The translations under genes were made by a program, and so were the position numbers. Positions 15,994-26,505 of a stretch of DNA of 64,000 nucleotides are shown here, piece after piece. The notes beneath the pieces are model-generated. The model saw nothing but the letters and a program-made list of their open reading frames with translations. It was not told the origin of the DNA and did no database searches. The DNA lies in the NCBI RefSeq assembly GCF_015689175.1, contig NZ_CP065047.1, positions 1,054,001 to 1,118,000 of the forward strand. Direction: 5' to 3'. Each line of letters opens with the position of its first letter. The first letter of the stretch is position 1. Source of the DNA: Mycobacterium kubicae. GTDB taxonomy: Bacteria > Actinomycetota > Actinomycetes > Mycobacteriales > Mycobacteriaceae.

Positions 15994-19968
<3,975 letters not shown>

Positions 19969-20128: not shown

Positions 20129-20659
20129 ATGGCGGTCAATGGTGGACTGAATGCGGTGCCTGTGGAAGAACTATTGGTCTACCAAGGCGAGGTCTTCATT
20201 AACTTCCGGACAAGCCGGCAATGGGTGGTGATGAAGTTATTCGCTTTGCCGGCAGAGAGCGACGACTACCAGATTCTGGACCTCTTGATTCGTCATCTGC
20301 GCTACCGGGACAGCTACGCCGCCCCAGAGTTCAAGGACGCGAAGACCATTCATGGACCGTATTGGTCGTACGCCATCGCCCCTGAATTGTTCTTTCCCGT
20401 CTCCGCCGTCGATGCCACAGCACTGATTCGTACGTGGGCCGAGTACGACGTGCCGTTAACTGATATTGATCGCGAGGCGATGGAGCGGGAGGTCTACCCA
20501 CGCATTCATGCTGCAACCAGCCGCTACCAACTACCGGACCTGGTGGATACCGCCCAGCACGATTGGGGTTCGACGGTCGGATGCACCGGGTTTCACGAAT
20601 TTGTATTGATTGACCGCCGCGCCGACAGGGTGGCGTTAGTGGTGGCCAGCGATGACTGA
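20129..20659 (+). CDS. Hypothetical protein, unrecognised
   Basis: 176 aa if the ATG at 20129 is used; a GTG at 20156 is an alternative, and neither has a well-spaced ribosome site. The protein is soluble, acidic and has no signal peptide or membrane segment. Aromatic residues are frequent (ILDLLIRHLRYRDSY, GPYWSYAIAPELFF), and it ends with GFHEFVLIDRRADRV, the look of a small alpha/beta cytoplasmic protein. Codon use is more AT-rich than in rpoC. It converges on the leftward EspC-type cassette. Immunity-type proteins often look like this and sit beside such cassettes, but I see no specific domain and make no functional call. Confidence 0.6.
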   Translation: MAVNGGLNAVPVEELLVYQGEVFINFRTSRQWVVMKLFALPAESDDYQILDLLIRHLRYRDSYAAPEFKDAKTIHGPYWSYAIAPELFFPVSAVDATALIRTWAEYDVPLTDIDREAMEREVYPRIHAATSRYQLPDLVDTAQHDWGSTVGCTGFHEFVLIDRRADRVALVVASDD

Positions 20660-20697: not shown

Positions 20698-21312
20698 TTA
20701 GGCAGTTCGTTCCTTGTCGAAAACGGCTGCAACAAATCCGTCGTACACCGCACCGCTCAGCCAGGCGACGTCTCCGGCAAGCCGGGACCGACTTTCGCCG
20801 TCGACAAAGATGTTCTGCACGATGAGTCGGCTTTCGTGGGGTCGCTTGGATCCGACCACATAGGTGCTGTGCTGGACCCACACGTTTCGGCCACCGATGG
20901 TGGCTATGCCGCTACTGCGGACGGCCGCAACGCGTTCGACGCGAGGAACAGGTAACACCTTGAGGACGACGCCACCGGCGTGAAGATTCCGCAGTATGCC
21001 ATCGGCGTGGTGATACACGTCGTAGAAGACCGGCCAGCCGGTGTAGCCGAAGACGTTCATCGTCTCGGCGGCCTCCCACCGGCCGTCACCTAATGAGCCA
21101 TGGACCGTGAGCCGGGCCATGGGCGACTCCGCATTGTCAGGCAGGTCCTGCGGTTGCCAGCCGGGTGGAACGCCTAATCGCTGGATCCACTGCGGTAATG
21201 AACCTTCTTTTAGGGCGACAAGATCGTGAATCTCTTCGTCCTCGGTCAACACAGCCAGCAGTGTCGTTGGTTGCACAGCCTGCCAGCGGTCAAAGCTTGG
21301 GATCGCGATCAC
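20698..21312 (-). CDS. Hypothetical protein coupled to the EspC-type cassette
   Basis: 204 aa from a GTG at 21312 that overlaps the stop of the upstream (IS-disrupted) gene by 4 bases (GTGA), so the two were translated together. There is no signal peptide or membrane helix. The sequence begins MIAIPSFDRWQAVQPTTLL and has a centre rich in Gly/Val strands (MNVFGYTGWPVFYDVYHHAD, GIATIGGRNVWVQHSTYVVG) and a C-terminal helix (LSGAVYDGFVAAVFD). I do not recognise the family; faint resemblance to the LpqN-like fold is not enough to name it. Tight coupling to a secreted-type WXG protein suggests a chaperone, co-secreted partner or immunity protein. Because the IS cuts the gene before it, its expression may now depend on an IS promoter. 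Confidence 0.7.
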   Translation of the reverse strand: MIAIPSFDRWQAVQPTTLLAVLTEDEEIHDLVALKEGSLPQWIQRLGVPPGWQPQDLPDNAESPMARLTVHGSLGDGRWEAAETMNVFGYTGWPVFYDVYHHADGILRNLHAGGVVLKVLPVPRVERVAAVRSSGIATIGGRNVWVQHSTYVVGSKRPHESRLIVQNIFVDGESRSRLAGDVAWLSGAVYDGFVAAVFDKERTA

Positions 21313-21884
21313 GGCACGGCCGCCTCGCCGCCCTGCCCTTCACCCGTGAGAATTGTCCACACGAGAACCCCTCCGACCAACACCCAACCGAACACCTGCT
21401 TGCCTCCTTCACTGAGATCATGACCGATTTCGGGCAGCCACGAGTGGCTACCAGGCGGTGGCGAAGTCGTATGGGGCACTGGCGGTGCCGGCGTATCGGG
21501 CTGATCCCAGCCGAAGACTGGCGGCGGCTGCGCAGGGCTGACGGTGAATCCGGGCGGCGAGGGGTCCCGCAACCACGGCGGAAGTTCGGATGGATGGGGA
21601 AGTGAGCTGGGCGGGATCGGAGTTGGTGCCGGATGGGGTGCAGCCGGGGCTTCAACAGGCAGCGGAGGGTGACCCAAAACGGGGGGGAGCGCTGGCGGGT
21701 CATCGATGAGCGGCAGCGGCAAGTGCACTTTGGGATTCTTGCGCGAGCCCGGCGTTGTTACCTCAATGGTGGGTCCACCCGACTTGCTGCCCGGTCGAAG
21801 ATCGATTTCAGTTCCATCAGCGAGCTGCTTGCGGCGTGTAGCGCCGCGTGGCGCCAGGTCCTGAGCGCTTCGAGTGAGCCAGTC
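21309..21884 (-). pseudogene. 3' part of IS-disrupted WXG100-like/proline-rich/TM protein gene
   Basis: This is the downstream half of the gene whose 5' half lies at 24051-24806. Removing the insertion element and one copy of the 6-bp target duplication restores one uninterrupted frame of 442 codons. This half encodes the end of a compact domain (DLAPRGATRRKQLADGTEID, then SKSGGPTIEVTTPGS and KVHLP), about 85 residues very rich in proline, and a single hydrophobic helix near the C-terminus (KQVFGWVLVGGVLVWTIL) followed by a short Gly/Glu tail. The GGPTIEV...KVHLP pattern reminds me of tails of actinobacterial secreted-toxin-like proteins; that is recollection, not a domain match. A GTG at 21728 could start a 139-aa fragment, but nothing suggests it is made. 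Confidence 0.8.
21879..21884. repeat. Left copy of the IS target-site duplication (CCAGTC)
   Basis: CCAGTC at 21879-21884 directly abuts the left IS end and is repeated as CCAGTC at 24051-24056 next to the right end. A 6-bp duplication is within the range made by IS21-family elements and shows that this is a simple insertion not followed by rearrangement. Confidence 0.85.
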
Positions 21885-21889
21885 TGTCG

Positions 21890-21935
21890 GCTCCGGTTGA
21901 ATTCTGAGCAGCCTGCTCCGGTTGAAAAGTGAGCA
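21890..21935. repeat. Left-end multiple terminal repeats of the IS
   Basis: Two tandem 21-bp repeats: outer copy 21890-21910 (GCTCCGGTTGAATTCTGAGCA without its last base exceeds no limit here; the variable core is ATTC) and inner copy 21915-21935 with AAAG in that core. They are probably transposase-binding sites. The outer copy differs from the consensus at the AATTC block. Confidence 0.75.
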
Positions 21936-21938
21936 GGT

Positions 21939-23983
<2,045 letters not shown>

Positions 23984-23999
23984 TCTCCAATCAGAAGGG

Positions 24000-24045
24000 T
24001 GCTCACTTTTCGACCGGAACTACCTGCTCACTTTTCGACCGGAGC
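24000..24045. repeat. Right-end multiple terminal repeats of the IS
   Basis: Two tandem 21-bp repeats in the opposite orientation to the left-end pair: an inner copy at 24000-24020 (TGCTCACTTTTCGACCGGAA plus C) and an outer copy at 24025-24045. The outer copy differs from the inner left copy by one base. Confidence 0.8.
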
Positions 24046-24050
24046 CGACA

Positions 24051-24806
24051 CCAGTCCCAGAACCGTTGTATGTCCTGGGGGGTTTCCAATTGCCTATTGG
24101 GTTTATTTTCGCCTCGGGGCAATTGGCGCAACGCCTCCCGAACCTCTTCGAGACTCTTGGGCGGCGGCAACCTCTCCCATGGAGGATCAGCCCCCGGATC
24201 GGGCGGTGTCGGGTCTTGTTTCCAGTGCCGGTCGACCGCGTGCACCCCTGGTTTCCTCGGCGGCGTCCTCGAAGTCGGGCTCGCTGGAAAAGTGTCTCGA
24301 ACCCCGGCCACCGTCGCGGTGATCCTGGCCGCAACTTGTTCGTCGAGGGCCACCAACTGCTCCGCCCGCTGGCGGATATCAGAGGCGAACGCCTCAGCTT
24401 GCGCCTGCCGTGCGGCGCGCTGCACAGCTGATCCACCCGAGAAGCGGTCGGCGACCGACATGTCTTCACGCACCACGAAACCCGCTGCGTGAGCGTCTTC
24501 GACCGCGTACCGCAACCGAGACCGAGCCGCATACAACTCCGAGGCTCCGCTGCGCGCGAACTTGGCCGCGGCGTACAACTGGTCGGCGACGGCGCTGGTC
24601 GCCAACATGTCGGCATGCGTCGCGGCGCGCAGGGCATCGGCCGCCTGGCCCTGCCAGTCGACCGACAGCGCGTCACGCCATACCTGGTTGGCCACCCCGA
24701 AGCTGCGCTCACCGATCGCCTGCCAGCGCTCGGCCGCATCAATCAGATGTTCGGTCTGCCATGCGATTAGCTGCGAGACGTCCGGAATTGTCGCGACCGC
24801 AACCAC
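24051..24806 (-). pseudogene. 5' part of IS-disrupted WXG100-like/proline-rich/TM protein gene
   Basis: Starts at a GTG at 24806, 2 bases after the stop of an EspC-like gene. Residues about 5-115 are helical with a WXG-like turn (ALSVDWQGQAADALRAATHA) and a second helix (LYAAAKFARSGASELYAARS), resembling WXG100/ESX-secreted proteins. A basic, proline-rich linker follows (SRTPPRKPGVHAVDRHWK), then SLEEVREALRQLPRG and the beginning of the domain finished in the 3' part (TPQDIQRFWDW). The IS interrupts after the codon for that Trp; translation would read 17 codons into the IS. Including the 3' part at 21309-21884, the intact protein would be 441 aa. Likely a type VII secretion substrate or effector, now inactivated. 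Confidence 0.82.
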
Positions 24807-24808
24807 GA

Positions 24809-25093
24809 CTACACGCCGATCACACGCGCCGAGGCGCCCGCCGCGTCGGCTTCAGTGGCGAGATATCCCGCGTCGGCTCCATCGACGTGGACGAAGTGCG
24901 TGTTCACCCGCGCGGCCAGGGCGGCGGTAGAGGCTGTGATGTCGACATGAGCGGCATTGACCGCGGCAGCGCTGGAATGACTTGTCCAACCCGCTAGGAC
25001 GGCGGGTGCGGACCCGTTGGACTCCCCGGCGGCGGCCCACCGGCCGGCCATCGTCCGCACCTCAGCACCATCCGCCCGCAGTCGCTGCTGCAT
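24809..25093 (-). CDS. EspC-like type VII secretion protein (DUF2580 type)
   Basis: 94 aa from an ATG at 25093. The pattern LRADGAEVRTMAGRWAAAG, then GWTSHSSAAAVNAAHVDITA and a C-terminal Tyr-containing helix (DAGYLATEADAAGASA) is typical of the EspC/'type VII secretion target' family of short helical-hairpin proteins secreted with ESX partners. A C-terminal YLATE gives the general YxxxD/E secretion signal. It is the first gene of a leftward cassette (this gene, the disrupted 441-aa gene, the coupled 204-aa gene). A TAGACT -10-like hexamer lies 8 bases before the ATG, suggesting a leaderless transcript. Its first codons are duplicated at 25640-25695. Confidence 0.8.
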   Translation of the reverse strand: MQQRLRADGAEVRTMAGRWAAAGESNGSAPAVLAGWTSHSSAAAVNAAHVDITASTAALAARVNTHFVHVDGADAGYLATEADAAGASARVIGV

Positions 25094-25156
25094 GGGACGG
25101 AAGTCTATTGAGATTGCCAGCGTGCGAAAGTCACCACGGTGGTCAATGTGCTCATC
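25038..25156. repeat. Copy A of the EspC/end junction duplication
   Basis: 119 bases that align without gaps to 25640-25758, with about 13 mismatches (about 89% identity). Copy A contains the first 18 codons of the intact EspC-like gene, the intergenic promoter region and the sequence GTGCTCATC, which equals the first three codons of endonuclease IV, then diverges. It is the left scar of a duplication or cassette insertion. Confidence 0.85.
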
Positions 25157-25271
25157 ACGCCCGAAAGGCGATCTCCCGCCGCGATCGATGAGTCGTATCT
25201 TCGACAGGATCGGAGATCTTGTCCTGCTCGGTCAACGCAGCAAGTTCACTGACGCGCAGTCCGGGGCGTTG

Positions 25272-25592
25272 TCACTCAATCTCACGATTCTCTATCTGTT
25301 GTTCGCGTGCATATTGGATTAGCTCGCTGAGTAATGCGTTCAACTCTTGCTGCAACAGCTGGTCGTCCAGAACCGGCGTATTGCCAGGCAAATCGTCGGC
25401 GATGAGATCGACCAGGTGAGCAAATTGTGGCCCGCGAAGGTCGAGCATCGGGATATTGTTTTCGATGAGTTCGGTCAGCATCTCTCTGGCGGACGCGTCG
25501 GCTACGCGGTTGGCCAAGTACTGCAGGACGTAGAAGGTGGCCCAGGAACTTGCCGTCCAATTGTTCTTCAAAAAGAAGATATTGCCAGCCAT
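25272..25592 (-). CDS. Small hypothetical protein in a duplicated-junction cassette
   Basis: 106 aa from an ATG at 25592 with GGAAT upstream; a longer frame to 25673 would run into the EspC remnant and is unlikely. The protein is acidic and helical, without membrane segments or signal peptide: MAGNIFFLKNNWTASSWATF, YVLQYLANRVADASAREML, then DLIADDLPGN and a Glu/Gln-rich C-terminal helix. Base composition is clearly less GC-rich than its neighbours (for example the run around 25570-25582). I do not recognise a family. The only gene between two copies of the EspC/end junction, it resembles the orphan immunity genes left in toxin cassettes; this is an inference from layout only. Confidence 0.65.
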   Translation of the reverse strand: MAGNIFFLKNNWTASSWATFYVLQYLANRVADASAREMLTELIENNIPMLDLRGPQFAHLVDLIADDLPGNTPVLDDQLLQQELNALLSELIQYAREQQIENREIE

Positions 25593-25605
25593 CAGTAATT
25601 CCGAT

Positions 25606-25695
25606 CTAGAACGGAAAATGTCTGTAGCCGAACCGACGCCACCGGCCGGCCATCGTCCGCACCTCAGCACCATCCACCCGCAGTCCCTGCTGCAT
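25606..25695 (-). pseudogene. Truncated duplicate of the EspC-like gene start
   Basis: An ATG at 25695 opens MQQGLRVDGAEVRTMAGRW, almost identical to the first 19 residues of the EspC-like protein at 24809-25093. The homology then ends, and ten unrelated residues lead to a stop at 25606. It lies 13 bases upstream of the small gene at 25272-25592. This is a remnant left by the duplication that produced the two junction copies, although its start and promoter could still drive the gene that follows. Confidence 0.8.
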
Positions 25696-25758
25696 GGGAC
25701 GAAAGTCTATTGAGATTGCCAGGCGGCGAAAGTCACTAGACTGGCCGACGTGCTCATC
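25640..25758. repeat. Copy B of the EspC/end junction duplication
   Basis: The partner of 25038-25156 (about 89% identical, same length). This copy leads into the complete endonuclease IV gene on the right but keeps only the first codons of the EspC-like gene on the left. It retains the TAGACT hexamer for rightward transcription that copy A has lost. Confidence 0.85.
25737..25742 (+). promoter_or_regulatory. Candidate -10 element of endonuclease IV (leaderless)
   Basis: TAGACT ends 7 bases before the GTG start at 25750, the spacing expected when transcription begins at the start codon. A TTGCCA at 25716-25721 could be a weak -35. Leaderless transcripts are common in mycobacteria. No ribosome site is visible before the GTG, which supports the idea. 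Confidence 0.45.
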
Positions 25759-26505
25759 GGTTCCCATGTTCACTCTGACGACCCCCTGGCCGCCGCCCAG
25801 GCCGACGGCGCCGACGTGGTGCAGTTCTTCCTCGGCAACCCGCAGAGCTGGAAGAAACCCAAGCCGCGCGACGACGCCGAGACGCTCAAGGCGTCCAGCA
25901 TGCCGCTGTATGTGCACGCCCCGTACCTGATCAACGTCGCCTCGGCGAACAACCGCATCCGCATCCCGTCCCGCAAGATCCTGCAGGACACCTGCGATGC
26001 CGCTGCCGAGATCAACGCGACCGCGGTGATCGTGCACGGCGGCCACGCCGACGACGACGACATGGAGGCCGGCTTCGAGCGCTGGGTCAAGGCGTTGAAG
26101 TACTTGAAAACCGATGTGCAGGTGTACCTGGAGAACACCGCCGGGGGCGACCACGCAATGGCCCGCCACTTCGACACCATCGGCCGGCTGTGGGACCACA
26201 TCGGGGACACCGGTATCGGGTTCTGCCTGGACACCTGCCACGCTTGGGCCGCCGGCGAGGCGCTGATCGATGCCGTCGATCGCATCAAAGCCCTCACCGG
26301 CCGCATCGATCTGGTGCACTGCAACGACTCTCGGGACGCGGCGGGCTCCGGCGCCGACCGCCATGCCAACTTCGGCGCCGGCAAGATCGACCCCGAGTTG
26401 TTGGTCGCCGTCGTCAAGGCCGCCGATGCACCCGTCATCTGCGAGACCTCCGACGAGGGCCGCAAGGACGACATCGCGTTCCTGCGAGAGAACACCGGCG
26501 ACTGA
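25750..26505 (+). CDS. end: Endonuclease IV (AP endonuclease)
   Basis: 251 aa from a GTG at 25750 ([16 protein letters not shown]). It is a TIM-barrel metal enzyme of the Nfo family: [70 protein letters not shown] and CETSDEG carry the His, Asp and Glu ligands for the zinc ions. It cuts DNA 5' of abasic sites in base-excision repair. It matches Rv0670. It was divergent from the EspC-like gene before the cassette between them was inserted or duplicated. The start codon region is duplicated at 25148-25156. Confidence 0.95.

Follow-up and report, generated by a model that had tools for sequence, protein, structure and literature searches.

Toxin-immunity cassettes with a WXG-100 partner occur in prophages of M. 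abscessus, according to the available text of PMC8092301 and, for the MabR prophages, of PMC9434293; polymorphic toxins in general are treated in PMC3482391. PMC8092301 describes one of the prophage immunity proteins as LpqN-like. The CDI and Rhs systems are known to include orphan immunity genes and displaced modules (PMC9086364; PMC10539506). In the available parts of these sources, orphan modules of CDI systems are found either downstream of the main locus or in the gap between cdiI and cdiB (PMC9086364), and an orphan immunity gene of Serratia protects against a foreign toxin (PMC10539506). Recombination among type VIIb immunity genes has been described for esaG (PMC9484751).

The locus considered here lies in Mycobacterium kubicae within a stretch of 64,000 nucleotides, hereafter the window (G000:C1:1054001-1118000 of a 6.0 Mb genome; 66.4% GC). 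It resembles the M. abscessus prophage cassettes in combining a small ESX-type partner, a toxin with a WXG-type N-terminus and a variable C-terminus, and an immunity gene behind it. Unlike those cassettes it is flanked by the housekeeping genes rpoC and end, and one of its cassettes keeps only the immunity gene, imm1, intact. The toxin domain paired with the imm1 family in other mycobacteria is similar to that of CdiA-CT/CdiI from Burkholderia pseudomallei E479 (5J4A, a PD-(D/E)XK-type tRNase), with five active-site positions conserved, but in contrast to the E479 CdiA it sits on a type-VII-like N-terminus. The topology of CdiI-E479 is given as mixed strand and helix (from a table in PMC9086364), whereas the low-confidence model of imm1 is helical throughout. 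As in the orphan immunity of CDI, Rhs and type VIIb systems, imm1 stands without its own toxin beside another toxin locus; unlike the CDI orphan modules, it appears to have acquired the promoter region and initial codons of a toxin operon. It is well supported that the window fits the known WXG-100 polymorphic toxin-immunity cassettes and orphan immunity. Literature searches, which covered few subscription journals, found no paper on a cassette locus between rpoC and end.

The rpoC-end locus and its direct repeat

The conserved flanks of the locus are the gene at 16018-19968 (plus strand), which we take, with the initial annotation, to be rpoC, and, on the opposite side, end, encoding endonuclease IV (25750-26505, plus strand; AP_endonuc_2, E = 2.7e-40). 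Between them follow ORF176, ORF204, a protein gene cut by an IS21-family element, espC2, one copy of a direct repeat, imm1 and the other copy of the repeat. ORF176 (20129-20659, plus strand) and ORF204 (20698-21312, minus strand) are cassette-associated and matched no Pfam or NCBIfam family. Many of the cassettes that adjoin end are accompanied by both. The interrupted gene of the second cassette (module 2) encodes a polymorphic protein, presumably a toxin, whose 5' piece (24051-24806, minus strand) has a WXG-type N-terminus at 24297-24806 and whose 3' piece (21309-21884, minus strand), beyond the insertion, has a C-terminal hydrophobic segment. The IS21-family element (21885-24050, 2166 bp; istA 22757-23983, istB 21939-22757; target duplication CCAGTC) is present in six identical full copies in the genome, that of the window included, which suggests recent activity. 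Since the module-2 cassette is cut by this element, no intact toxin-type gene is left at the rpoC-end locus of the window. The adjacent espC2 (24809-25093, minus strand) encodes an EspC-like small T7SS partner of 94 aa in which YxxxE is present.

The initial annotation had described a duplicated espC/end junction around a small gene of lower GC content, and this description holds. The direct repeat, 25037-25156 and 25639-25758, spans 120 nt with 107 of 120 positions identical (89%) and no gaps (BLASTN E = 1.8e-40). Both copies contain the first 19 codons of espC (minus strand) and the first 9 nt of end, separated by the divergent intergenic region; the left copy holds the start of espC2 and a 9-nt remnant, end', and the right copy the start of a truncated espC1' and that of the real end. 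As had also been noted, the full espC extends from the left copy only and the full end from the right copy only. A genome search with the whole stretch returned no second site, only short matches of at most 36 nt. The same duplication does not appear fixed across mycobacteria, the case that had been named as telling against the initial annotation: among the matches listed, from 61 genomes, only that of the window's own genome went beyond the end-side part.

The 13 mismatches between the copies are unevenly spread. In left-copy coordinates, two fall within the 57 nt of espC codons, five within the 42 nt on the espC side of the intergenic region (25094-25135), six within the 12 nt directly ahead of the end' start (25136-25147) and none within the 9 nt of end (25148-25156). 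Because the espC side is less diverged than the bases before the dead end' start, both copies of the putative divergent promoter region (left, 25094-25147; right, 25696-25749) are plausible. The right copy would serve espC1' and imm1 on the minus strand and end on the plus strand, and imm1 would be read from it. On the minus strand it contains TGACTTTCG...AATAGACTT...ATGCAG, a motif kept, with variation, across the cassettes that adjoin end. A mechanical sigma-70 scan of 24700-25900 found no promoter; it is the conservation of the motif that suggests promoter function.

Thirty-two loci were scanned for TGACTTT, and counts were taken from 15 of them. The heptamer lies 321-335 nt ahead of the toxin start at all seven end-adjoining loci among these 15 (the window, G216, G240, G097, G359, G261 and G058) and occurs at one of the eight other loci (G259, contig C70); one of the seven lacking it is cut by a contig edge. 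The G259 occurrence rules out that TGACTTT is exclusive to the rpoC-end site. This second cassette of G259, away from end, bears the same promoter motif as the rpoC-end cassettes, which indicates that a cassette and its promoter can move together.

Between the repeat starts, espC1' (25606-25695, minus strand) is an EspC-like ORF truncated to 29 codons, after which a stop lies 13 nt ahead of the imm1 start codon. Over its first 20 codons it fits the espC family model (E = 2.7e-6), a model that includes the window's own espC2. The small gene imm1 (25272-25592, minus strand, 106 aa) has 52.3% GC and a GC3 of 67%, compared with 91% for end. In the junction segment between imm1 and end' (25157-25271, minus strand), positions 25202-25244 weakly resemble the start of ORF204 (21216-21258; 77%, E = 0.004), a scrap that may fit, if weakly, a former position of imm1 ahead of ORF204.

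The imm1 family and its CdiA-type tRNase partner

Pfam, NCBIfam, PADLOC and PHROGs assigned the imm1 protein to no named family, and the housekeeping family that the initial annotation had counted as contrary evidence thus did not emerge from these collections. Nor was there a match in phage or plasmid collections, or a convincing second copy in the window's genome (best other match E = 0.89). The structure search proposed earlier for the 106-aa protein gave nothing usable: the model is all helix and weak (pLDDT 68.8), no PDB entry matched at E <= 0.001, and the immunity chain of 5J4A was absent among the sequence matches listed and, at this low model confidence, from the best 50 of 142 fold matches. 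Profile matches to designed helical proteins (best E = 1.6e-7) were read as composition. Since the structure search is uninformative, the immunity assignment rests on genomic pairing.

That pairing is consistent. With alignment models, the imm1 family was found in 22 of 396 genomes of the genus and a CdiA-type tRNase domain in 11 of 396, and all 11 toxin-domain genomes also carry the immunity family (hypergeometric P = 8.6e-16). In 10 of the 11 the toxin-model match ends 5-40 nt before the immunity-model match; in the exception, G306, the sole toxin piece lies behind the immunity match with a 6-nt overlap. Sequences from five of the 11 genomes (G047, G077, G084, G107 and G359) went into the toxin model, and the six outside it (G204, G216, G246, G297, G306 and G339) all pair. 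The initial search of 198 genomes had found the immunity family in nine and the toxin domain in four, all four within the nine. Eleven of the 22 immunity-family genomes gave no toxin match at E <= 1e-6, namely the window's own, G009, G021, G119, G124, G213, G299, G300, G337, G340 and G384. From this distribution, a reading of the small gene as an orphan immunity-type gene is supported.

Several arrangements within the family are worth recording separately. In G384 (L157) the immunity-family gene is preceded by a 20-residue toxin tail of lower significance, and in G246 (L152) the toxin is reduced to the last 29 model positions ahead of the immunity gene; both are half-deleted pairs. On contig C37 of G047 (L076 7060-9300), about 100 kb from end, there are two tRNase-domain/immunity pairs together with displaced toxin tails.

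M. palustre (L009) has a homologue of imm1 with 67-68% identity, located likewise between rpoC and end and directly behind espC and a toxin ORF. That toxin ORF is frameshifted, and its last 80 aa, searched separately, match Pfam CdiA_C_tRNase (E = 3.4e-7). In G359 the end-adjoining cassette is unbroken and comprises espC, the gene for a 416-aa protein with the tRNase domain at its end, and the immunity gene. PF18664 scored above its cut-off in three of the four carriers scanned, G359 reaching 26.3 bits against a cut-off of 26.5. A profile of five mycobacterial toxin domains matches PDB 5J4A, 'tRNA nuclease CdiA' (E = 1.1e-10). Five active-site positions are given for BpE479, E204, D229, D243, H275 and D285, in the available text of PMC9086364. 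Their spacing, 25/14/32/10, agrees with the aligned chain and places them at E31, D55, D66, H90 and D100 of the G359 domain; D55, D66, H90 and D100 are invariant in all five rows and E31 in all four rows that cover it. The 5J4A chain has alanine at the last active-site position of the alignment, which may be an inactivating change in the construct. Judged by these residues, the toxin domain probably acts as a metal-dependent tRNase. In M. palustre and G359 the toxin domain and the immunity gene have 50-55% GC, and the N-terminal part has 65-68% in the window and M. palustre (68% for the M. palustre N-terminus). A toxin/immunity end of lower GC content than the N-terminus is a usual mark of an exchanged cassette.

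In the window's own genome, the CdiA-type tRNase domain was found neither by the Pfam model, nor by a single sequence, nor by the alignment model; the same single-sequence query had found four carriers among the 198 genomes. The toxin model run over 24501-26500 likewise gave no match. It is because the toxin domain was not found in this genome that imm1 is called an orphan. The ten codons before imm1 were considered as a residual toxin tail and ruled out by a shuffle test and a model scan. For a toxin tail between espC1' and imm1, the DNA comparison with two relatives scored no better than shuffled sequences did (855 and 1094 of 2000 shuffles as good).

Cassettes at the site in other mycobacteria

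An espC gene and the N-terminal domain adjoin end in eight genomes as well as in M. palustre and the window; in G113 it is espC and 30 residues of the domain that do so. The eight come from 39 stretches chosen for carrying toxN or imm1 relatives, and eight of 39 is no frequency; for G359, G294 and G113 the stretch examined shows the end side of the locus only, the rpoC side lying outside. The cassettes in relatives share espC and a common WXG-type N-terminus followed by variable C-termini and differing small downstream genes, and different C-termini adjoin end in G240, G058 and G359. The N-terminal domain, toxN (170 aa), was found in 245 of 396 genomes of the genus at E <= 1e-5. When the G240 protein was used as query, 675 of 8000 scored candidates proved to be related proteins. 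Among 120 of the 675, none had a precomputed Pfam domain, the names shown were 'hypothetical protein' except for one 'transmembrane protein', and about 45% of the query was common to the later rows at about 80% identity.

The model of the N-terminal domain (pLDDT 93) predicts a long helical hairpin of the WXG type, with W-x-G in the turn. Its fold matches (VIA-align) include EsxEF and PPE proteins, which rank no higher than unrelated helical bundles. By sequence the domain matches two M. abscessus prophage proteins that bear the annotation 'polymorphic toxin protein' (E = 3e-7 and 1e-6); one of these toxins, in the region examined, adjoins an 'ESX complex protein'. YxxxD/E is a motif of small EspC/WXG-like partners, and YxxxE or YxxxD is present in all six espC family members. 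Pfam EspC (PF10824) matches one of the six, weakly (E = 0.0012), and does not match the window's member. The espC family profile resembles the prophage ESX protein with 76% probability; the window's espC alone shows no resemblance to it (E = 0.11). The cassette protein may be secreted via an ESX system.

In a tree of the N-terminal domain, the end-adjoining members cluster, with three changes against a mean of 8.5 for shuffled labels (0 of 500 shuffles as low), and do not form one clade; the label 'other' given to G378 is less sure, its end genes lying on other contigs. The window's genome has a second cassette with an unbroken ORF, again with espC, a WXG-type N-terminus and a variable C-terminus, at C1:2370794-2373142 (L078 6795-9143). 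The 298-aa ORF after it has two similar-looking halves and is perhaps a doubled immunity gene.

Tandem arrangements are found in two relatives. G359 has two tandem espC-toxN cassettes, the second running off the contig, and between them ORF204, ORF176, remnants of another toxin and the immunity gene of that toxin. In G097 an intact cassette adjoins end, and farther in (L072 8330-9640) there is a 33-codon fragment of end, followed by the promoter region, an espC start, a tail of about 80 codons of a second toxin, and the intact immunity gene of that toxin. The toxin-immunity pair wrecked in G097 is unbroken in G058. A third promoter copy stands ahead of ORF204 in G097. Given this structure, duplicated end starts with promoter and espC starts are a scar left by tandem cassettes at this site in at least one genome besides that of the window, and the window would seem to carry the same scar, with imm1 in the gap. 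By eye, an lpqP-like scrap of the next gene, which we presume to be lpqP, lies beside the end fragment of G097.

An end match was obtained in 33 evenly drawn genomes, the window's own excluded, and 31 stretches upstream of end were examined; rpoC was also matched in 25 of the 31, in two only partially. The N-terminal domain was found in none of the 31, and the site is therefore not commonly occupied. The spacing between rpoC and end is below 300 bp in 7 of the 25 stretches, and an ORF of G047, which we take to be ceramidase-like, was matched in 5 of the 31. G010, whose End protein is the closest to that of the window among 54 matched genomes (98%), has an rpoC-end interval of only 167 bp, and this interval is empty. 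A short espC match in the interval of G028 (L088) falls by eye inside a hydrolase-like ORF; it was judged to be due to chance and was not counted.

Proposed history and meaning of the orphan immunity gene

The explanation that, taken as a whole, we hold with considerable confidence is that the window has lost an end-proximal toxin cassette and has kept imm1 under the old promoter, where it would protect against the matching tRNase. The interval between rpoC and end would be a chromosomal site that in some mycobacteria is occupied by a type-VII-type polymorphic toxin cassette subject to loss and exchange. Such a cassette is made up of a divergent promoter region, an espC-like partner, a toxin with a constant WXG-type N-terminus and an exchangeable C-terminus, and an immunity gene. 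An ancestor of the window would have had two such cassettes in tandem, and the repeat would represent the promoter region and espC start of each. A deletion in the end-proximal cassette may then have taken nearly the whole of a CdiA-type tRNase toxin together with the remainder of espC, sparing the promoter region, the espC start and imm1. With these three left in place by the deletion, transcription of imm1 probably continues from the former toxin promoter, and imm1 probably protects the cell against relatives that deliver a matching tRNase. The initial annotation had read the structure as insertion or swap of a cassette of the kind seen where toxin/immunity modules are exchanged. The module context of that reading is borne out by the end-adjoining cassettes of relatives and by the pairing in 11 of 11 genomes; it can be sharpened in that the small gene was probably not exchanged alone and is probably the remnant of a tandem module that lost its espC and toxin through deletion.

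An arrival of imm1 alone remains the strongest rival, and we consider it rather unlikely. A fragment of promoter, espC start and immunity gene would have entered by homologous recombination ahead of a cassette already present, the deletion of espC and toxin having occurred in the donor and the repeat being the insertion scar. With 13 mismatches in 120 bases, the two copies of the repeat are no recent duplication in place, the window shows no toxin remnant, and family members occur in 11 of 22 genomes with no toxin match, all of which would suit this course of events. However, the tandem cassettes of G359 and the tandem units of G097, with a fragment of end between them, allow the structure to arise by deletion alone, and the window's two promoter copies share 89% identity, more than either shares with any further locus examined (at most 77% over at least 95 nt).

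It is quite improbable that imm1 is a decaying leftover, under no selection and with no protective role. Its neighbours are indeed wrecked, espC1' being cut to 29 codons, end' to 9 nt and the other cassette by IS21. Yet imm1 itself is open over the full family length and has the top score to the family model, to which it contributed. It shares 71 of 106 aa with the M. palustre homologue (dN 0.207; dS was not computable, which we read as saturation), and the repeat copies are conserved on the espC side and diverged before the dead end' start. That the small gene is an ordinary one, unrelated to toxins and beside espC by chance, would suit its lack of a named family in the four collections searched but is hardly credible, given a family present in every toxin-domain genome with the toxin match directly before it in 10 of 11, and same-site cassettes in two relatives.

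Beyond the loss of one cassette, the rpoC-end site may, more speculatively, be a repeated device for disarming while staying immune, by which a library of expressed orphan immunities is built up without the toxins; this is possible, and we hold it as doubtful. The divergent promoter and espC start would act as a short homology handle, and deletions starting just inside espC would, time after time, leave a lost cassette's immunity gene directly behind the toxin promoter. The window, with imm1, and G097, with a different immunity gene and its third promoter copy before ORF204, would then be independent products. This repeated take-over of the promoter would be the most unusual trait of the locus.

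These findings give an exchangeable type-VII-type toxin/immunity locus a fixed address on the mycobacterial chromosome, between housekeeping genes. The locus displays intermediate stages in the form of tandem cassettes, tail remnants and a bare immunity gene, and it provides a testable toxin/immunity pair, the CdiA-type tRNase and the imm1 family. The prediction is that strains with a bare immunity gene would resist strains that carry the full cassette.
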